From assembly GCA_946188165.1 (NCBI GenBank), contig CAMHTW010000005.1, positions 1-64,000 of the forward strand: a DNA stretch of 64,000 bases, in the 5' to 3' direction. Below are positions 1 through 57,651 of this stretch, one piece after another. The notes under the pieces were generated by a model. That model had not been told where the DNA came from and made no database searches. It saw only the letters and a list, made by a program, of their open reading frames with translations. The position numbers and the translations under genes are program-made. Numbering within the stretch: position 1 is the first letter of the stretch; each line of letters starts with the position of its first letter. Origin of the DNA: an uncultured Prevotella sp. GTDB taxonomy: Bacteria > Bacteroidota > Bacteroidia > Bacteroidales > Bacteroidaceae.

Positions 1-180
1 TTTTACCGCAGATTACGTTCTTTATTTACCGCAGATTACGCAGATTATACAGATTTTTTATCTATCGGTGCAGAGTGTAGGCGCAGCTATAATCTGTGAA
101 ATCTGCGTAATCTGCGGTTAATTATTAGGTGCAGAGTGTGGCGCAGCTATAATCTGTATAATCTGCGGAATCTGCGGTAA
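1..180. repeat. Palindromic CGCAGATTA-type intergenic repeat cluster
   Basis: Seen directly: one block starting GTGCAGAGTGT occurs twice, at about 68-118 and 129-179. Both copies run into AATCTGC(G)-type words. The reverse complement of those words (accgcagattacgcagatt) lies at about 28-46, so the region can fold as a long hairpin. It sits just downstream of the HU-like gene, which ends at 187. It may act as a terminator or be a miniature repeat; nothing coding is seen in it. Confidence 0.7.
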
Positions 181-186
181 ATTCAA

Positions 187-1861: not shown

Positions 1862-1969
1862 TGACACAGATAACAGATGTAACAGTAGAAAATGATAATC
1901 TCTTCGCGTACCGCATATGCGCGCACGGTACGCGAGGCTTCTTAGAAAACATCTGTTCCATCTGTGTCA
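1862..1969. repeat. Long imperfect hairpin overlapping the 3' end of the virE-like gene
   Basis: Three nested perfect stems are visible: TGACACAGA/TCTGTGTCA (1862-1870 with 1961-1969), AACAGATGT/ACATCTGTT (1872-1880 with 1949-1957) and TCGCGTACCG/CGGTACGCGA (1904-1913 with 1926-1935). The right arm encodes the last residues (TDDTDGTDVF) and the stop of the VirE-like protein. It may serve as a terminator or be a mobile palindromic repeat. Confidence 0.65.
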
Positions 1970-3339
1970 TCTGTGTTTGTCTGACTCTGTTTCATTGCAT
2001 CGTAGGCCAGCGCTACGGCACGCTGCTTGCGCTCCTCAGGCGGAATGCGCACCACATAGTAGCCGCGATTGTGATTGATGGTGGCTGCCTTAAACCCCAG
2101 ATGCGTAAAGGCACGGCCCAAGGCGACGGTAGTGAGATGCATGCCTGGCGAACTCAACAGTTGCTTGGCAACCGCCGTTCGCATAAACTCACCTGTCTCG
2201 GCACCACGGGGCTGACGGAAGTACTCTGCCACCAGGTCCTCTTCGTCATTCGATGTAGTATACGCCTCATTATGCTGTTGCAGCCGTTCTATCTCGGACC
2301 TGTCGAACCAGTACTGGAAGCCCTGCTGGTACAGCGTGTAGGCTTGCGCGTAGATGCCGTCGTAGTCGAAGGGCGACGTCAGGGGCGACTCGATGCTTTT
2401 CACCTCGAAGGGCAGCCAGCGGCGCGTGCCCGTCGTGTCCGACAGGAACTGCACGTTGTTGCCCGTGCCGCAGAACGACGCCAGGTGCGGCAGCGACTCG
2501 TGGTAGCGGCCGTAGGCCTTGCGCTCGTTGATGGACGGCATGGTCATCGTACCCTTCATCTTGTTCAGCTCCTTGGGCAGCATCGAGTCCAGCTCCTCCC
2601 AGCACATCAGACCGTATTGCGCCAGCACCAGCCGGTCGTCCTTCGTCAGCATGGCGGAGTCGGTCTTCGTGTAGAAGTAGTCGCGCAGCTGGGGCGGCAG
2701 CAGGTTGGCGAACCATGTCGTCTTGTACGTGCCCTGCTCGCCTATCAGGATGAGCATCACGTTGTTCACTACCTTCGCATCGACCCACGACGCCACCATA
2801 CCCACCAGCCATTTCTTCAGGTACTGGTAGAACAGGATCTGCTCGTCAGCGTCGCCCTTGACGATCACCGTCAGCGAGAGTCTAAGGATATGGTCGCCCT
2901 GTTTGGGCGTCCATGGTGACAAATGCTCCAGATAGTCGCGGAACGGATGATACTTCGGCACATAGTCCGACTCGACGACATTCAAGAGGTGCTGCTTGAT
3001 GACGGCCTTCTCCTGACACAGCTCCATCCAGAGCGTGTTGATGTCGCGGTCGGTGAGGTTCGTGTAGCCGTCCGTAGCACACTCGTCGCCGCCGAAGATG
3101 GTCAGCAGGCCTCGCTCGTCGGCCCTGATGACGGGACCCTTCGACAGCCAGTGAATCTCCGGACGCCCTCTGACCTCATTATACCGCAGCCACACGCGAC
3201 TGTCCAGCATCGCCTTAATCTCCTCTGGCGTGGCATACGTCTCCTGCCACGACTTCTTGTGGGCCCCATTCTGGGCCCCTCCCTGGGACCCACCCCGGCC
3301 CTCCCTGCTCAGGGAGGGGGTATTATTATTCTTTTTCAT
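1942..3339 (-). CDS. VirE/VapE-type P-loop ATPase
   Basis: 465 aa from ATG 3339. It belongs to the virulence-associated E (VirE, PF05272-like) group. The Walker A motif GEQGTYKTT is at about residues 200-208; an acidic CWEELD strand (Walker B-like), a C-GTGNNVQFL motif and the arginine-rich GTRRWLPFEV follow in the usual order. These proteins resemble replication helicases and occur in mobile regions; the Bacteroidetes versions sit beside HU-like and DUF4248 genes, as here. The primase-like N-terminal domain seen in longer relatives is missing. I chose ATG 3339 because the promoter box TACCTTTG (3363-3370) lies inside the longer TTG-start ORF. Residues 6-28 (NTPSLSREGRGG and following) come from a GC-rich palindromic element, and the C-terminus comes from a hairpin repeat, so both ends are repeat-derived. 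The substrate is unknown. Confidence 0.85.
   Translation of the reverse strand: MKKNNNTPSLSREGRGGSQGGAQNGAHKKSWQETYATPEEIKAMLDSRVWLRYNEVRGRPEIHWLSKGPVIRADERGLLTIFGGDECATDGYTNLTDRDINTLWMELCQEKAVIKQHLLNVVESDYVPKYHPFRDYLEHLSPWTPKQGDHILRLSLTVIVKGDADEQILFYQYLKKWLVGMVASWVDAKVVNNVMLILIGEQGTYKTTWFANLLPPQLRDYFYTKTDSAMLTKDDRLVLAQYGLMCWEELDSMLPKELNKMKGTMTMPSINERKAYGRYHESLPHLASFCGTGNNVQFLSDTTGTRRWLPFEVKSIESPLTSPFDYDGIYAQAYTLYQQGFQYWFDRSEIERLQQHNEAYTTSNDEEDLVAEYFRQPRGAETGEFMRTAVAKQLLSSPGMHLTTVALGRAFTHLGFKAATINHNRGYYVVRIPPEERKQRAVALAYDAMKQSQTNTDDTDGTDVF
3261..3322. repeat. GC-rich palindromic element at the N-terminus of the VirE-like gene
   Basis: GGGCCCC and CCTCCCTG...CAGGGAGG words form nested palindromes. 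The element reads through in frame as PSLSREGRGGSQGGAQNGA. It shares the CTCCCT/AGGGAG core with the element at 4238. Confidence 0.55.
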
Positions 3340-3362
3340 ATACCAAAATTTGCTTTTGGCTG

Positions 3363-3370
3363 CAAAGGTA
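3363..3370 (-). promoter_or_regulatory. Minus-7 promoter box (TACCTTTG) of the VirE-like gene
   Basis: CAAAGGTA on the plus strand; it gives a short leader of about 20 nt before ATG 3339 and settles the start codon. Confidence 0.6.
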
Positions 3371-3388
3371 CGAAAAACCAAAAACAAT

Positions 3389-12741: not shown

Positions 12742-13893
12742 ATGGAAGAGATTCAGATTTGGATTGAACAACTGGTAGAGACATGTGGCGTGACTGGCGA
12801 CACTGTCAACTTTGTAACCCATACCATTTTGGTATTATTAGCCTTTGCATTGGCCTTCCTGGCTGGTTGGCTATGCAGTAAACTGCTGATTCCCATTGTA
12901 CTGAGACTGACCAAGAAAACAGAAACCAAGTGGGACGATGTGATGTTCAACGAACGCGTGTTGAAGTCGGCTTGTAGCATCGTGCCCGCCATTGTTATAT
13001 GGCAGTTGCTGCCTTGGACGTTCTTCGACTTCCCTACTGTTCGTGAGGTGTTGACGCGTCTGACAGGCATCTACATTACCATCATGTCGGCACGTACCCT
13101 CATTGTATTCAGCGACTCCATGAAGCAGTTGGAGTCTAATACACAACGGTCTGCCCGTCAACAATATATGCACTCACTATGTGGGGTACTGAAGATTATC
13201 ATCATCTTCATTGCTGTCATCGTGGTGGTAGCCATCATCATCGACAAGAATCCTGCTACGCTCTTTGCTGGACTGGGTGCAGCGTCAGCCATCTTGATGC
13301 TGGCCTTTCAAGACACCATCAAAGGACTGGTGGCTGGCATTCGTCTGACATCCAACGACATGCTGCATGTAGGCGACTGGATTACCGTTGCCTCGGCTGG
13401 TGCCAATGGTCGTGTAGAGGATATCACGCTGACAACTGTCAAGGTACGCAACTTCGACAACACCATCGTCACAGTATCCCCCCAAACTTTGGTTGACGGT
13501 TCATTCCAAAACTGGATTGGCATGGAACAGAACGAGGGACGTAAGCAATCGCGCCGTATCTTCTTTGACTTCCGCTCTATCCATCTGGATGACGACGGTG
13601 TGGCCAATATTACCAAATTCCGCACGCATCTGGAACAATGGCTGCGTGAGAATCCTAAGGTTATGGGCGACAAAAATCCGTTGGTACGACATGCTGAGGC
13701 CTCGCAAGGTGGCTGTTGTATGGAGCTGACCTTCTGGCTGCATGCGCAGGCATGGAATGACTTCGAACACGACACGGCAGACATCATGGAATATGTTTTT
13801 GCTGCTGCCAACGAATATGGTCTGCGTATCTACCAGCAGTTCCCTGATCAAAAGCCCACCCTCTGCCCCTCCCGAGCGGGAGGGGAGTTATAA
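12742..13893 (+). CDS. MscS-family mechanosensitive channel
   Basis: 383 aa. Membrane helices are visible at about 24-50 (ILVLLAFALAFLAGWLCSKLL), 72-95, 100-120 and 150-172 (IIIIFIAVIVVVAIII). They are followed by the pore helix region FAGLGAASAILMLAFQDTIKGLVAGI and the beta domain (LHVGDWITV, GRVEDITLTTVKVRNFDNTIVTVSP). This is the layout of the MscS/YbdG group, which opens on membrane tension to release solutes after osmotic downshift. Start 12742 follows the promoter box. The last 13 residues (KPTLCPSRAGGEL) and the stop are encoded by the first unit of a 64-bp palindromic tandem repeat, so the original C-terminus has probably been replaced. Confidence 0.9.
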   Translation: MEEIQIWIEQLVETCGVTGDTVNFVTHTILVLLAFALAFLAGWLCSKLLIPIVLRLTKKTETKWDDVMFNERVLKSACSIVPAIVIWQLLPWTFFDFPTVREVLTRLTGIYITIMSARTLIVFSDSMKQLESNTQRSARQQYMHSLCGVLKIIIIFIAVIVVVAIIIDKNPATLFAGLGAASAILMLAFQDTIKGLVAGIRLTSNDMLHVGDWITVASAGANGRVEDITLTTVKVRNFDNTIVTVSPQTLVDGSFQNWIGMEQNEGRKQSRRIFFDFRSIHLDDDGVANITKFRTHLEQWLRENPKVMGDKNPLVRHAEASQGGCCMELTFWLHAQAWNDFEHDTADIMEYVFAAANEYGLRIYQQFPDQKPTLCPSRAGGEL

Positions 13894-13979
13894 GGGAAAA
13901 GTGAAAAATGTAAAAAAACCCACCCCCTGCCCCTCCCGAGCGGGAGGGGAGTTATAAGGGAAAAGTGAAAAATGTAAAA
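13855..13979. repeat. Two 64-bp units with a CCCCTCCCG/CGGGAGGGG hairpin
   Basis: Units at 13855-13918 and 13919-13979 are nearly identical. Each has a GC-rich hairpin followed by GTTATAAGGGAAAAGTGAAAA. The first unit supplies the C-terminus and stop of the MscS gene; the second lies before the endonuclease gene. The hairpins could also act as terminators. Confidence 0.8.
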
Positions 13980-31555: not shown

Positions 31556-34162
31556 TTATTGGATACCAAAGTCTGCCTGCTGAGCCTCTACCTCTTGTAG
31601 CAGCTTGGCTTTTTCTTCGTCAGAAAGGGTGGATGATGGCTGATGCCCAATGGATGATGTATGATGACGGACAGCTGTCTCACTAACGTTGTAACACATG
31701 GGCAGGTCGTAGGGAATGCTTTCTATCTCCAATTCAGCAGGTGTGGGAGCATGAGTACCAGGGAACTGCACCTCAGCCTTAATCTTGATTTTACCTGCCT
31801 GACGGGTGCTACGAACGAGTATAGGCGCACTACCCCACTCTACGGCACGGGGATTGGCATTGATGCTGGCATCACCAATGATTTCGCCTTCACCCTCGAC
31901 AGTAAAGCGAATCTGGTCTTTCGCTAAACGACGGACGTGGCCCAAATCATCTGTCACCTCACAGACGACGACAACGAAGTCAGATCCGTCAGCCACGAGT
32001 TGCTTGCCCATCTCATCAACATAAAGACGGAGCTTGGTGCTACGACGTGAAGGCATCTTTTCTTCCTTGCACACGACCTTGCCATCAATAATACCTTCGG
32101 CCACCATCTTAACACTTTGCCACGACTTCTGCGTATAGCTATGATTACGAGCTTCGAAAAAATCCCAGGCATCCCTGAAGACCACAAGCCCCTTCTCTAC
32201 CGGTTGCACCCAACAATGCTCGCCATCGTACATGGTCAGGCGAACACTGTCGCAATTCGAGAAGATGGTAATGTCCTTCTCTGAGAACTGCGTCATCTCA
32301 TGGGCAATCGCTACGATAGCTTGTTCAGTAGGTTGCTGTAGCACAGCAGCAAACATATCAAAGGCTGTCTTTTTCTGGCGGAAGGCATCATAAATGCCAC
32401 CCCAATAGGGGTCAGGATGATAACCTCGCTGGTGGTCGAAGGGGTGCCACTGACAGCCACCTATGAACTGACCTGTTGTATGGAAGAGCTCTTGCGTAGA
32501 ACGATAGAGGCTCATAGCCTGCGTCAGCATGGGACGCTCGCCCCACGAACGCGAGGCACGATTCAAGTTGTTGTGGGCATACCAGTCGTCAACCAGTTCG
32601 CCAAACTCGCGTGTGAAAATGCACTGCTGGGGTGAACCATTGACCGCTGACCATTGACCATTGCGTATTTTGAAGTCGTCACCTGGCCACCCATAGACGA
32701 CATCGTAATGTTCAGCCACACCAGCACTATGTACATCAGCAGCAGCTACAGGACGATAAGGGTAAGGATATTCGTCTTTTGTTATTTGTAGTGCCTGCAA
32801 GGCAAACTCCTCAGGATAACGCGTCTCGTTCAAGATGGGTTCCCACATCAGCACGCAAGGATGATTGCGGTCGCGACGAATGATGTTACGCGTGTTCTCG
32901 TGAACCTTCTCATCCCAACCTTTGTCTTTGTTCCAATACTGCCAACCTGGTGTTGCCACAATGATAAACAAGCCTAATTCGTCGCAGGCATCCATGAACG
33001 AAGGGTCTTGTGGATAGTGAGCCGTACGGATAATGGTAAAGCCTGCATCACGCAGTCGTTTGGCATCACGCCACTGCTGACTATTGGGCAAGGCATTGCC
33101 TACGTAGGCGAAGTCCTGATGACGATTGGCACCCACCAACTGGTGGTAACGCTTGCCATTGAGCCAAAAGCCTTCCTTGCCCTTGAACTCGAAGGAACGG
33201 ATGCCAATGCGAGTGACACCACCGTCAAGCGACGACTTACCATCCTTGATGCGGGTGGTAATATGATATAGATAAGGTGTTTCTGGACTCCATAGTTTAG
33301 GGCTCTTGACTATAAAACGCTGGGTAATGGTGCGTGCTTCGCCAGGCTGGAGCTTCAGTTTGGTTTGTTGCGACTGAATCGCAACACACTCTGAAAGGGT
33401 GTTTTCAACGGTAATGGTGCGAGGGCGAGTGTCGCTGTTGCGCACTTCCGTATTGACATAGACCTCAGCGCTTTTTTCGCTGATGTTGGCATAATGTACG
33501 AAGATGCCACCACCAGCAACTTTGTTTTCTTCAAGGGCATCCGTGATGGCCACCTTGTTTTTGGCAATAAGCCATACGTCGCGATAGATGCCGCCATGAT
33601 AGGCAAAGTCGAGCTGCGCCTGTTTTTTGCCTGGGGGGTAGGTCTTGTCGTCGCTGTTATCGGCTTTGATAGCGACGACCATGTCGTCGCCCACAGTTGT
33701 AGGCAGGGTGATGGTAATAGGTAGATAGCCACCCTCGTGCTCTTTTACCTTCTGACCATTCATGTAGATGGTCTGTTTACCCATAATGGCCTCGAAATGC
33801 AGGGTAACGTCGCGTCCTGCACACTCCTTGGGCAACTTAAAATGTTTACGATACCATGCAACACCTTGATAATTGCGACAACCACTGGCCTCAGCAGGCA
33901 TCAGTTGGACAGTATGAGGCGTCGACACCACTTCCCACGACTTATCATTATAATCTTTGACCTCAGCACCTGCCACATCGCCCAAATGGAAGCGCCATCC
34001 TGCATTGAAGTTCCATACCAAGCGACCACTATTCTCCAATGGGAATAGGCCTGCAACGGAAGTGTGCGCTTGTAAAGGTAAAAGGGTAAAAAGGTAAAAA
34101 GGTAAAAAAAATAATACCGCCCTATATACCAACTTATTATTCATTATTATTGTTCTCTTCAT
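31556..34162 (-). CDS. GH2 family glycoside hydrolase (beta-galactosidase/glucuronidase type)
   Basis: 868 aa. A jelly-roll domain (WNFNAGWRFHLGD, YRKHFKLP, YHGGIYRDVWL), an immunoglobulin-like domain, then the barrel with the acid/base Glu in MWEPILNETRYPEEF and the nucleophile region FTREFGELVDDW, and C-terminal beta domains (FEAR..., VCEVTDDLGHVRRL). The sugar specificity cannot be read. The signal peptide core (LFFLPFYLFTLLPLQA) is encoded by a TTTTTACC tandem repeat. Two loops also contain repeat-coded stretches: NGQWSAVNGSPQQ (32637-32663) and HHTSSIGHQPSSTLSD (31630-31669). It is the last gene of the PUL operon, 16 nt after the esterase gene. Confidence 0.9.
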   Translation of the reverse strand: MKRTIIMNNKLVYRAVLFFLPFYLFTLLPLQAHTSVAGLFPLENSGRLVWNFNAGWRFHLGDVAGAEVKDYNDKSWEVVSTPHTVQLMPAEASGCRNYQGVAWYRKHFKLPKECAGRDVTLHFEAIMGKQTIYMNGQKVKEHEGGYLPITITLPTTVGDDMVVAIKADNSDDKTYPPGKKQAQLDFAYHGGIYRDVWLIAKNKVAITDALEENKVAGGGIFVHYANISEKSAEVYVNTEVRNSDTRPRTITVENTLSECVAIQSQQTKLKLQPGEARTITQRFIVKSPKLWSPETPYLYHITTRIKDGKSSLDGGVTRIGIRSFEFKGKEGFWLNGKRYHQLVGANRHQDFAYVGNALPNSQQWRDAKRLRDAGFTIIRTAHYPQDPSFMDACDELGLFIIVATPGWQYWNKDKGWDEKVHENTRNIIRRDRNHPCVLMWEPILNETRYPEEFALQALQITKDEYPYPYRPVAAADVHSAGVAEHYDVVYGWPGDDFKIRNGQWSAVNGSPQQCIFTREFGELVDDWYAHNNLNRASRSWGERPMLTQAMSLYRSTQELFHTTGQFIGGCQWHPFDHQRGYHPDPYWGGIYDAFRQKKTAFDMFAAVLQQPTEQAIVAIAHEMTQFSEKDITIFSNCDSVRLTMYDGEHCWVQPVEKGLVVFRDAWDFFEARNHSYTQKSWQSVKMVAEGIIDGKVVCKEEKMPSRRSTKLRLYVDEMGKQLVADGSDFVVVVCEVTDDLGHVRRLAKDQIRFTVEGEGEIIGDASINANPRAVEWGSAPILVRSTRQAGKIKIKAEVQFPGTHAPTPAELEIESIPYDLPMCYNVSETAVRHHTSSIGHQPSSTLSDEEKAKLLQEVEAQQADFGIQ
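31630..31669. repeat. GGATGATGG-type repeat inside the GH2 C-terminus
   Basis: GGATGATGGCTGATGCCCA and GGATGATGTATGATGACGG words. They encode HHTSSIGHQPSST near the end of the protein and share the GATGGCTGATG word (on one strand or the other) with 61794-61826. Confidence 0.5.
32637..32663. repeat. CCATTGACCGCTGACCATTG repeat inside the GH2 barrel region
   Basis: CCATTGACC, GCTGACC and CCATTGACC words encode NGQWSAVNGS. They resemble other low-complexity intergenic words of the window. Confidence 0.45.
34073..34110. repeat. GGTAAAAA tandem repeat encoding a signal-peptide core
   Basis: Four to five GGTAAAA(A) units. Read on the minus strand as TTTTTACC they give FFLPFYLFTLLP, the hydrophobic region of the GH2 signal peptide. 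Confidence 0.7.
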
Positions 34163-34178
34163 TTACTTTCTTACCTTT

Positions 34179-35603
34179 TCATTTTTCCCAGTTGTCTGTC
34201 CTGAAAGAAGAAACAGGCAATCCATCGTGCATCAGGTCGCCTACCGCCCAATCCTTAAAGGCATAACGGACGGCATAAGGCTGCTTGACATCGTCGCAAA
34301 CGACATAGACACGATTGCGATTGACCCATACCTTCGTGGCAGGATGAAACACGCGATCAGAGCCTGCAACCTCAAAGTTTTTCGACGTTGTTCCATGCTC
34401 GAAATAGACCCACTCCTTCGAGCGGTCGAAACTGACGACAGCCGTATCGTTCTGGAAGGTTACCTCCTTATATTTGGCAAAGTCGGGCAGATTCTTGACG
34501 CCATAGGTATTGCTGAGTGCCAAGAGTGCCAAGCGCTCGCCTGCCAAGTATTTCTTACGAGGATGGATGCAGTCCTTGAGACCTGAATCCATCAGTACAG
34601 CCATGCGACAGTTGGGAACCATCGATTCCACCTTCTCCTGTTGTTCACGCAGCAAGGCACTATTATAGAGCGCCCAATCTGTCTCGTCGTATGCAAAGGG
34701 AGCTATCTGACAGTAGTAGAAGGGGAAATCGCCCTGGTGCCACTCCTCGCGCCACCCCTGAATCATACGGGCAAACAAGGGCGCATAGAAGTCATAGCGT
34801 GGCACATTGTCTTCGCCTTGATACCAGATGGCACCACGAATACCATAATGTACTCCATCGTAGATAAGTGGCTTGAGTTGTCCGTTATAGAGCGCTGTAG
34901 GACAACGCTGCTCCAGTTTCTTGACATCTGCTTCCGTTATCGTCTGCTGTACCTTGGGGAAGGCTCTCAACCAGTCAGCCTTCATCCATGCCTCACAGGC
35001 AGAACCGCCATAGGCCGTACATATCAGCCCCACAGGCACTCCCAGCATCTTCCGCAGTGCCTTACCAAAGTAATAGGCTGTGGCAGAGAACTCGCGAACG
35101 CTGCCCAAATTCGCAGGCTGCCATGAACCTGCAAGGTCTTGCTGGGGCTCTAAGGATGCGAATCGCTTGCCATAGAACAATCGCAGTCCGTCATCGTTAC
35201 AGGAGAACAGTTCATCAGCAGCCACCTCTACTGGCTGTGCCTTATAACCCTTCATGGGCATCTCCATGTTCGACTGTCCGCTGCATATCCACACCTCGCC
35301 AATCATTATGTTATTCAAAATAACAGGGTCGCCATCCTTGAAGGTGACAGAATAAGGTCCGCCTGCTTGGGGCGTTTTCACCGTCACGTCAAAGCGTCCA
35401 TCCTTACGGGCTGTCACTCTGTAAGACTTCTTATCCCATGAGGTCGTTACCTGGACCTTTTTGCCTGGCTCCGTCCATCCCCAAAGGTTACACTCTGCCT
35501 GTTGTTGCAGCACCATATTATCGCTGAAGAACTGAGGCAACCTGACCTTAGCACTGGCAGTGATGCCCATCAGCGCAACGATGACACAAATAAGTTTTCT
35601 CAT
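34179..35603 (-). CDS. SASA-type carbohydrate esterase (sialate O-acetylesterase/acetylxylan esterase-like)
   Basis: 474 aa with signal peptide MRKLICVIVALMGITASA. The SGNH features are present: the nucleophile Ser in GEVWICSGQSNMEMPM, ATAYYFGKAL, AYGGSACEAWM, IRGAIWYQGEDN, and the catalytic His in DCIHPRKK. An N-terminal beta domain (LPQFFSDNMVLQQQAECNLWGW) is typical of this family. It removes O-acetyl groups from plant glycans (xylan or pectin) or sialic acid; the PUL setting favours plant glycans. It starts 1 nt after the GH106-like gene, so translation is coupled. Confidence 0.88.
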   Translation of the reverse strand: MRKLICVIVALMGITASAKVRLPQFFSDNMVLQQQAECNLWGWTEPGKKVQVTTSWDKKSYRVTARKDGRFDVTVKTPQAGGPYSVTFKDGDPVILNNIMIGEVWICSGQSNMEMPMKGYKAQPVEVAADELFSCNDDGLRLFYGKRFASLEPQQDLAGSWQPANLGSVREFSATAYYFGKALRKMLGVPVGLICTAYGGSACEAWMKADWLRAFPKVQQTITEADVKKLEQRCPTALYNGQLKPLIYDGVHYGIRGAIWYQGEDNVPRYDFYAPLFARMIQGWREEWHQGDFPFYYCQIAPFAYDETDWALYNSALLREQQEKVESMVPNCRMAVLMDSGLKDCIHPRKKYLAGERLALLALSNTYGVKNLPDFAKYKEVTFQNDTAVVSFDRSKEWVYFEHGTTSKNFEVAGSDRVFHPATKVWVNRNRVYVVCDDVKQPYAVRYAFKDWAVGDLMHDGLPVSSFRTDNWEK

Positions 35604-51032: not shown

Positions 51033-51884
51033 TTATTCCGTCTCGACGTCAGCACGACGGAACGTGGTGTCGTAAGTGACGATGTTACAAGCAGAGAAAT
51101 AACCCAAGCAACCACCCGTGAAGTTCTGGACAGGATTGGTGCCAGAATTCTGCATTACCTGCATAGAATAGAAATAGTCATACGTACGACGATCTATTGA
51201 ACGTATCTCCAGGTGTATCTTGTCACCATCCTTGAGAGCGTTGTCATCGTTCTTGTCGAGATTGCGCTCTGTGGTGCAGCTGAACAATTGTTGCAATTCA
51301 CCACCAGGATTGTGTGAGTCGTCCATCACAGCCCAACGATATCCTATCCCATTGCGATAGATATGCATAAAGTAATAGTTGTTCTGCCCACTGATGTCAT
51401 CTATCTTCAAATCGCCAAACAAGAGACGCTCAGAGAGCACATCCTTCCACACAAAACGGAAGGACGCGAACTGTGGTTCTGCCTGCATCACTGATGATGA
51501 CTGGAAATGGTTGCCATCGAGATAGATGTCAATAGTATATTGACTACCCTCATATCCCTGACAATCGGAGATATAATAGCCATTGCGCCAATAACGCAGC
51601 GTATCAAGCACATAGCCGTCTTCAGACAATACAACGGTAGCGCCTGTCAGATTGTGACTGTTCGAGACATTGTCTGTCATATCCTGTGTGGTGGTCAGGC
51701 GGACATAAGTGGGCTTGTTGGTACGATTCGTCGAACCACTCTGCGTCACAAGACCTTCAGCCACATAGAGCTGATCTACCTGATGGTAGTCGATATCTAT
51801 CTCTTTCTCACAAGAAGTAAGAAGTAAGAGGTAAGAGGTAAGAGGTAAGAGGTAAGAAAATACCTTATATATATTCTGTTTCAT
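51033..51884 (-). CDS. DUF4249 lipoprotein, partner of a TonB-dependent receptor
   Basis: 283 aa. The mature part (EKEIDIDYHQVDQLYVAEGLVTQ, VVLSEDGYVLDTLRY, YTIDIYLDGNHFQSSSVMQ, ACNIVTYDTTF) fits DUF4249, a surface lipoprotein family encoded next to TonB receptors of unknown substrate. The signal peptide and lipobox (SYLLPLTSYLLLLTSC) are encoded almost entirely by six 7-bp tandem repeats (51814-51855). It starts 5 nt after the receptor gene, so the two form one operon. Confidence 0.85.
   Translation of the reverse strand: MKQNIYKVFSYLLPLTSYLLLLTSCEKEIDIDYHQVDQLYVAEGLVTQSGSTNRTNKPTYVRLTTTQDMTDNVSNSHNLTGATVVLSEDGYVLDTLRYWRNGYYISDCQGYEGSQYTIDIYLDGNHFQSSSVMQAEPQFASFRFVWKDVLSERLLFGDLKIDDISGQNNYYFMHIYRNGIGYRWAVMDDSHNPGGELQQLFSCTTERNLDKNDDNALKDGDKIHLEIRSIDRRTYDYFYSMQVMQNSGTNPVQNFTGGCLGYFSACNIVTYDTTFRRADVETE
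51814..51855. repeat. Six 7-bp tandem repeats (GAGGTAA) encoding a lipoprotein signal peptide
   Basis: GAAGTAA twice and GAGGTAA four times in direct succession. On the minus strand (TTACCTC) three units make seven codons, giving the SYLLPLTSYLLLLTS hydrophobic core. The same word occurs between genes at 61431-61460. Confidence 0.85.
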
Positions 51885-56991: not shown

Positions 56992-57039
56992 TGCGGGCGA
57001 CACCCTAAATATAAAATAATAAATAAAAAAGTAGAGTAT

Positions 57040-57651
57040 ATGGAAACGAAAAAGGCACTTATATTTTTTCTTTTATATTTTATATTTAGCCCTGTAGGGG
57101 CGCAGACGGTTGCCCTCAAGACTGAAGGGCAGGACCCTCAATACGTAGAAACCATCAAGGGACGTGCCCAGAAAATTGTTGACGGTCTGCAATTAACTGA
57201 TGCCAAGAAGGCAGAAAACGTGCGCAACATCATTGCCAACCGCTACTTTCTGCTCAACGACATCCATGCCAAGTATGATAAAAACCAACAGGATGCACGC
57301 GATGCCGAACTCTACAAGCATCACTTCGAATTGGCCTCGGCCTTGGCACTCTATCTGAATGAAGAGCAGATTGATGCTGTAAAGGATGGTATGACGTACG
57401 GACGACTGAAGCGCGACTATCAGGCTCAGCTGGAAATGATTCCAACATTGACAGACGAGGAAAAGGCGCAAATCCTTATCTGGCTCAAGGAAGCCCGCGA
57501 ATACGCCATGGATGCTGCCGACTCCAAAGGTAAACACTTCTGGTTCGACAAATATCGTGGACGCACTAATAACTGGCTTTCGGCTCGTGGCTATGACTTG
57601 AAGAAGGAGCGCGACGCTTGGATGAAACGTAGTGCGGCTTCGCCTAAATAA
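57040..57651 (+). CDS. DUF3826 secreted protein
   Basis: 203 aa. The signal peptide (LIFFLLYFIFSPVGAQTVA) is followed by an all-helical domain (IKGRAQKIVDGLQLTDAKKAENVRNI, RYFLLNDIH, LYLNEEQIDAVKDGMTYGRLKRDY, LTDEEKAQILIWLKEAREYAMDA, WFDKYRGRTNNWLSARGYDL), which fits DUF3826, a family recurrent in pectin PULs next to PL1 enzymes. Function unknown. The signal-peptide DNA resembles that of the next gene. Confidence 0.82.
   Translation: METKKALIFFLLYFIFSPVGAQTVALKTEGQDPQYVETIKGRAQKIVDGLQLTDAKKAENVRNIIANRYFLLNDIHAKYDKNQQDARDAELYKHHFELASALALYLNEEQIDAVKDGMTYGRLKRDYQAQLEMIPTLTDEEKAQILIWLKEAREYAMDAADSKGKHFWFDKYRGRTNNWLSARGYDLKKERDAWMKRSAASPK

Follow-up and report, generated by a model that had tools for sequence, protein, structure and literature searches.

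Signal peptides coded by short tandem repeats in Prevotella, probably parts of an interchangeable leader-plus-signal-peptide module

Introduction

Signal peptides (SPs) are usually viewed as sequences that drift fast and are inherited vertically. Dispersed repeats located in frame in many unrelated genes are exemplified by the Rickettsia palindromic elements, which occupy varied positions in the encoded proteins. In the opa genes of Neisseria, CTCTT pentamer repeats belong to the leader-peptide code and vary in number, which switches expression within one gene family (PMC3960869). Heptamer direct repeats with the unit TAACTGA are found just 5' of start codons in Beggiatoaceae, Cyanobacteria and some Bacteroidetes, and have been proposed to act in translational regulation (PMC4679880). 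For the GDF/BMP proteins, turnover of the SP sequence has been attributed to an accumulation of point changes, both neutral and compensatory (PMC2717928).

Here we analyze a stretch of 64,000 nucleotides from an uncultured Prevotella sp. (assembly GCA_946188165.1, contig CAMHTW010000005.1, positions 1 to 64,000; hereinafter the window), in which the SP of a glycoside hydrolase is coded by a tandem repeat. As in opa, the SP of an exported surface protein is coded in part by short non-triplet tandem repeats; unlike those of opa, the Prevotella arrays are constant in length and frame, occur in about 25 unrelated families and come with an inverted array before the start codon. The Prevotella leader arrays resemble the TAACTGA repeats in being tandem arrays of 7-8 bp units, in a single, sense orientation, located 5' of and near the start codon, and patchily distributed among relatives, but only one unit is involved there, whereas Prevotella employs many units whose reverse complements code for SPs. 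The TAACTGA unit itself is absent from the array units found here, namely GGTAAAAA, AAATAAA, GTGAATA and others. As in the GDF/BMP proteins, the SP is replaced while the function and the mature protein are kept, although through repeat arrays and the copying of blocks from gene to gene rather than through point changes. With the Rickettsia elements, the Prevotella repeat shares its dispersal in frame across many unrelated genes; however, the former are palindromic elements of their own, whereas the latter is restricted to the SP and linked to the leader. The opa repeats, heptamer arrays and SP turnover are known; repeat-coded, exchangeable SP modules common to unrelated genes appear to be unreported, given that no report was found in the open-licence literature.

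The Prevotella SPs look like exchangeable parts supplied by simple repeats: an unrelated protein has received a copy of at least one leader-plus-SP block, and sister species carry different SP types on orthologous proteins. Such repeat-coded modules would provide a concrete, testable route for the replacement, and perhaps the birth, of export signals. On the genomes compared, repeat-coded, swappable export tags seem to belong to some rumen-type Prevotella.

Materials and methods

Tandem arrays were identified with TRF and counted when they scored at least 40 and overlapped the first 35 codons. The own-genome sample comprised 864 kb (the window and 40 stretches); ORFs of at least 120 aa were considered, and SPs were recognized by a simple n/h/c rule. 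SP and gene calls throughout follow simple rules, and most of the genomes are MAGs. The SP pattern of the window glycoside hydrolase was judged by eye and by a simple rule. The pattern GTAAA-N-ATG-N-TTTTTACCTTTTTACC was searched in 100 genomes, together with a reversed control. A maximum-likelihood tree was built from 48 mature GH2 domains, with SP types labeled by pattern and by eye.

Results and discussion

The GH2 glycoside hydrolase gene occupies positions 31556..34162 on the minus strand and encodes an 868-aa protein with the Pfam domains Glyco_hydro_2_N, _2, _2_C and C5 (PF02836, PF00703, PF02837 and PF18565). Its translation begins with MKRTIIMNNKLVYRAVLFFLPFYLFTLLPLQAHTSVAGLFPL..., and the SP-coding part (34067..34162, minus strand) reads MKRTIIMNNKLVYRAVLFFLPFYLFTLLPLQA, the cleavage site being predicted from the n/h/c pattern and the N-termini of orthologues. 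TRF detected a single array at this site (34074..34108, minus strand; hereinafter T1), with a period of 8, 4.4 copies, 92% matches and the unit AAAGGTAA. Seen on the forward strand, it is a 4.4-copy (GGTAAAAA)n array; the coding read is TTTTTACC, in the order TTTTTTTTACC TTTTTACC TTTTTACC CTTTTACC TTT, and encodes the hydrophobic core FFLPFYLFTLLP. The array covers codons ~19-29, and the h-region FFLPFYLFTLLPL residues 18-30 of the enzyme. The N-terminus shows the pattern of a Sec signal peptide, with a charged n-region, a core and small residues at the cleavage site, the predicted layout being a positive n-region (MKRTIIMNNK..R), the hydrophobic core AVLFFLPFYLFTLLPL and QA. The preliminary description had reported that a repeat at 34073-34110 codes for the GH2 SP core, which TRF bears out to within 2 bases at the ends; that account left out the dispersed-module nature of the SP and an inverted array before the ATG. 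The latter, a GGTAAAAA-type leader element reading AAAAGGTAAGAAAGTAA on the minus strand (34163..34179), is a degenerate reverse complement of the SP repeat, lies immediately 5' of the ATG and overlaps the end of the upstream gene. This neighbor (34179..35603, minus strand) encodes a SASA-type acetylesterase (PF03629, neighbor comparison) with the non-repeat SP MRKLICVIVALMGITASAK.

Two further SPs in the window are coded by repeats. In the DUF4249 gene (51033-51884, PF14054), an array of the ACCTCTT unit (51812..51857, minus strand) codes for YLLPLTSYLLLLTSC; this was the first case of the preliminary description, and TRF recovers it with a unit different from that of GH2. The leader test found no inverted partner of this array. 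An SP similar to that of GH2 is present in the DUF3826 gene (57040-57651), where a TTATATT array with the tail AGCCCTGTAGGGGCGCAG (57059..57104, plus strand; T2) codes for ..FIFSPVGAQ. Its inverse partner is an AAATAAA array in the leader (57007..57030, plus strand), and the complementarity between the two exceeds the 98th percentile of the background. Other units present in SPs include TTATTTT, TTTATCA, TTGGCTG and TTTATTG. The carriers of repeat-coded SPs are members of exported families by Pfam and blastp, and the repeat-coded N-termini presumably act as working SPs.

The search for GTAAA-N-ATG-N-TTTTTACCTTTTTACC yielded matches in 15 of the 100 genomes, all of this genus, and none for the reversed control. 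All 33 genes read from these 15 genomes encode LPFYLFTFLP(L) or near variants after a mostly K/V/G-rich n-region. According to blastp analysis of the mature parts, this LPFYLFTFLPL-type T1 SP is found on approximately 25 unrelated exported families. By Pfam, the carriers include PorV, FGE-sulfatase, PPIC rotamase, LptE, peptidases C69, S9 and M6, an esterase, PorZ, SusD, GHL10, GldN, DUF4249, BspA LRR, OmpH, SPOR, GH97 and CBM26 proteins, with OEP, LacZ-type GH2, TPR and DUF386 proteins as further carriers in the own genome. An independent count placed the last T1 unit in one frame in 27 of 31 genes, and the number of units is 3-4 in 27 of the 31. A PorV query matched unrelated proteins through the SP alone, with E values down to 3.5e-11, so similarity searches that include the SP give rise to false homology in these genomes. 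No occurrence of LPFYLFTFLP was found in the open-licence literature.

The orientation of the arrays is strongly biased. In the own-genome sample, GGTAAAAA arrays in leaders are sense in 10 cases and antisense in none, those in spacers are sense relative to the flanking co-directional genes, and the 6 arrays of this type in N-termini are antisense, all in SP genes. Across all unit families, A-rich arrays cluster at -60..0 and T-rich arrays at 0..+105 of SP genes, with 19 T-rich arrays at 0..+105 in SP genes vs 1 in non-SP genes. In G007, G018 and the own genome, each of the 24 exact double-unit T1 SPs has a reverse-complement GGTAAAAA array in the mRNA leader; because the search pattern itself demands GTAAA upstream, this set combines the pattern-found genes with all remaining SP-coding exact double-unit sites of these three genomes. 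Several other exact double-unit sites in the same genomes are leaders of cytosolic genes. In a looser own-genome set, 2 of the 6 T1 SPs (L094 and L114) have no leader array, and among SP genes without arrays the complementarity between leader and SP shows nothing. Inverted coupling was also detected in 7 of the 32 genes with other units (p 0.008), the pairs being GTGATAA/ACTTATC, GTGAATA/TATTCAC and AAATAAA/TTTATTT, suggesting repeated origins of the leader-to-SP inversion.

Leader arrays were also observed in other settings. GGTAAAAA arrays precede housekeeping-like genes (EF-G, S10, chorismate synthase and CobT, by eye; L284, L287, L288, L293 and L294), so the leader array is not restricted to exported genes. 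Near position 1790 of L296, an array adjoins the GTG start of a lipoprotein-like gene (GGTGAAACG), and the last unit therefore seems to provide the start codon. At L032:1400-1440, the leader array also codes for the final residues of the upstream gene (VIKVKR, stop), so that C-terminus, spacer and leader coincide in a single array.

The most direct evidence of copying comes from Prevotella sp. Tb.RUG.460 (L032), in which the GH2 gene, with its ATG at 3001, and an unrelated acetylesterase gene next to it (ORF start 1441; named SASA by orthology to the window gene 34179..35603) share a 144-nt block encompassing leader, ATG and SP, with 128 of the 144 positions identical. The block starts inside the GGTAAAAA leader and ends sharply at the SP cleavage site. 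The probable donor is GH2, because GH2 orthologues in other species carry the n-region of this block and their acetylesterases mostly have MRKLIC-type SPs. This is the sole long, clean copy event found; distant genes otherwise share mostly the repeat itself. In L028, the two neighbors have a shorter T2 SP in common. Over 30 loci, the SPs of neighboring GH2 and acetylesterase genes are more alike than those of swapped pairs (p 0.003), largely due to L032 and L028. T2 SPs of unrelated GH88 and GH106 genes (L116) share the non-repeat tail AGCCCCGTAGGGGCGCAG, from which the tail of the DUF3826 SP in the window differs by one change.

Replacement of SPs is also apparent among orthologues. Mapping five SP types onto the GH2 tree requires 17 changes, and T1 alone, present in 8 rows, requires 8 changes, at least 5 of which are forced by well-supported branches. 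The closest row to the window GH2 (L013), at 90% identity, carries an unrelated SP. The array aligns without gaps among the GH2 T1 orthologues. Because five T1 rows share a GH2-specific n-region, orthologues may have exchanged their 5' ends, which would account for part of the scatter of SP types without copying from one gene to a different one. Similarly, PorV has a T1 SP in G007 and, at 86% identity, an SP containing a GC-rich palindrome in the own genome.

Such GC-rich REP-like palindromes (CCCCTCCC..GGGAGGGG) are present in spacers and in frame at N-termini (L299; window positions 1942-3387 and 13850-13979). In the own-genome PorV (L299), the palindrome codes for the SP/c-region LAPLPWWGGVGVGYAQ, and palindromes of this kind are likewise contained in the GH2 SPs of L013, L031, L034, L037, L042, L045 and L046. 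We rejected the possibility that they are SP-specific, as they also occur at the N-termini of non-exported proteins.

We consider it probable that the h-region repeat is part of a leader-plus-SP module that is interchangeable between genes. Under this scenario, the spacers and mRNA leaders 5' of starts in some Prevotella species would contain repeats of the slippage type with 7-8 bp units (GGTAAAAA in the present case), with the A-rich strand as sense, and the reverse complement TTTTTACC would code for the hydrophobic SP core, because T in the second codon position specifies Phe or Leu and every frame of this non-triplet T-rich repeat is hydrophobic. The module would consist, in order, of the leader array, the ATG, a Lys-rich n-region, 3-4 copies of TTTTTACC and the cleavage region, and would be copied among unrelated exported genes, replacing their SPs and retaining the mature proteins. 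The arrays would probably prime this copying, through ectopic recombination or gene conversion. The persistence of the module would reflect tolerance rather than benefit, since an SP requires just charge and hydrophobicity. Weighing against module copying are the single long copy, in L032, the lack of SP arrays in G019, a genome of the same genus, and the missing leader arrays of L114 and L094.

A more far-reaching version, which we regard as doubtful, holds that SPs are born by fold-back copying, with inverted repeats acting as a general generator of SPs that later spread between genes. An A-rich leader array running through the start codon would yield a Lys/Val/Gly-rich n-region, and template switching at a short palindrome, such as GGTAAAGGTTTTACC where the n- and h-regions meet, would write the reverse complement downstream; since Lys codons have Phe codons as their complements, an inverted repeat would supply n-region and hydrophobic core at once. 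Fold-back template switching could conceivably produce the leader-to-SP inversions.

Alternatively, each SP could have grown its own array in place by slippage, with selection for hydrophobicity and length accounting for the likeness. The hydrophobicity of all TTTTTACC frames and the many other units in SPs fit a general tolerance to slippage, and the DUF4249 array at 51812-51857 looks like such a case. Independent growth is nevertheless an unlikely explanation of T1, in which most genes have 3-4 units in one frame, the inverted leader array accompanies 24 of 24 exact SPs, and non-repeat tails and n-regions are held in common; moreover, the 144-nt block of L032 asks for common descent.

It could also be proposed that the leader and SP arrays pair around the start codon in the mRNA and control translation of exported proteins. 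The near-obligate coupling in T1, 24 of 24, and the inverted coupling with other units would fit such a hairpin, and the T1 leader-plus-SP segments fold stably as a class (z -2.45 vs -0.77 for control SP genes), in a set partly selected for GTAAA in the leader. However, within T1 the own leader pairs no better than swapped leaders (p 0.93 and 0.22 in two tests), the window GH2 fold is ordinary (z -0.79), and pairing of the start region is 0.53 vs 0.51 in controls. Hairpin regulation, with strong class folds but pairing that is not gene-specific and a window hairpin that is not significant, is therefore not supported and appears rather improbable. Because the pairing lacks gene specificity and the start is hidden no more than in controls, we read the coupling between leader and SP as pointing to a shared origin and to block copying, not to regulation.

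Loss or gain of 7-8 bp units in the SP code would shift the reading frame, and this holds for the non-triplet, 8-bp GH2 unit; the close parallel with Opa (PMC3960869) raises the prospect of phase variation that switches the protein on and off. Such a role is disfavored to the point of being highly improbable because array length and frame stay constant between species, across T1 orthologues and unrelated families; furthermore, the arrays are short, and many carriers are envelope housekeeping parts (PorV, LptE and GldN).

The 3.41-Mb genome contains 12 copies of the perfect dimer GGTAAAAAGGTAAAAA (reversed control 0). This dimer is patchy within the genus and nearly absent elsewhere; of the 40 relatives counted, 11 have it, including one from outside the genus. 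In the own-genome sample, a 7-16 bp tandem array overlaps codons 1-35 in 21 of the 255 SP-type genes (non-triplet units in 18), compared with 6 of 296 non-SP genes, 75 of 5785 internal segments and 3 of 294 internal transmembrane (TM) segments. Codon permutation and synonymous shuffling gave means of ~0.9 and ~2.0 vs the 21 observed, with a maximum of 6 over all runs. A chance product of T-rich hydrophobic codons is virtually excluded as the source of these arrays in the own genome because, although SPs are T-rich (29% T), the TM segments are more so (31%) and yet yielded only those 3 arrays, 1 of them non-triplet, and within-SP and synonymous codon shuffles gave about 0.3-1.0 non-triplet arrays vs 18. 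The comparison of SP regions with controls that the preliminary description proposed thus shows a clear excess in the own genome (non-triplet units, SP regions vs internal segments of 35 codons: odds ratio 10, p 2.6e-11).

The enrichment is real and lineage-specific, because G007, another species of the same genus, repeats it and G019 and other samples do not. In G007, arrays are present in 10 of the 129 SP genes (shuffles 0.2-0.65) and non-triplet arrays in 8 of the 129 (shuffles 0.05-0.25), whereas in 400 kb of G019 only 1 of 121 SP genes has an array and none of the 121 a non-triplet one. In four more samples of the genus, each of ~100 kb, and in 183 kb of outgroups, all of them small, there are nearly no SP arrays. 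Intergenic arrays in G019 reach 1.7/kb, more than in the genome of the window, and intergenic repeats therefore do not automatically feed SPs. G019 thus offers a natural contrast for the factor that admits arrays into SPs. As a separate observation, G019 (L141-L160) has ~100 TTTTTACC-type matches genome-wide.

These results qualify the earlier suggestion that T-rich intergenic repeats are a source of new SPs. The enrichment in SPs agrees with it, but only in certain lineages, as G019 illustrates. With respect to strand, the intergenic GGTAAAAA arrays of leaders and spacers present their A-rich strand in the direction of the genes, and the SP copy alone is the reverse complement. As for newness, what is best documented is replacement and copying of SPs on already exported proteins (L032 and the GH2 tree), not birth on a protein that lacked an SP.

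Finally, a 9-bp unit close to AATCTGTGG, possibly representing a further unit family, is intergenic at window positions 1-183, and a unit near AATCTGTGG codes for the SP LICIICAICGLNAIAQ in the GH2 orthologues of L020, L021, L024, L035 and L047.
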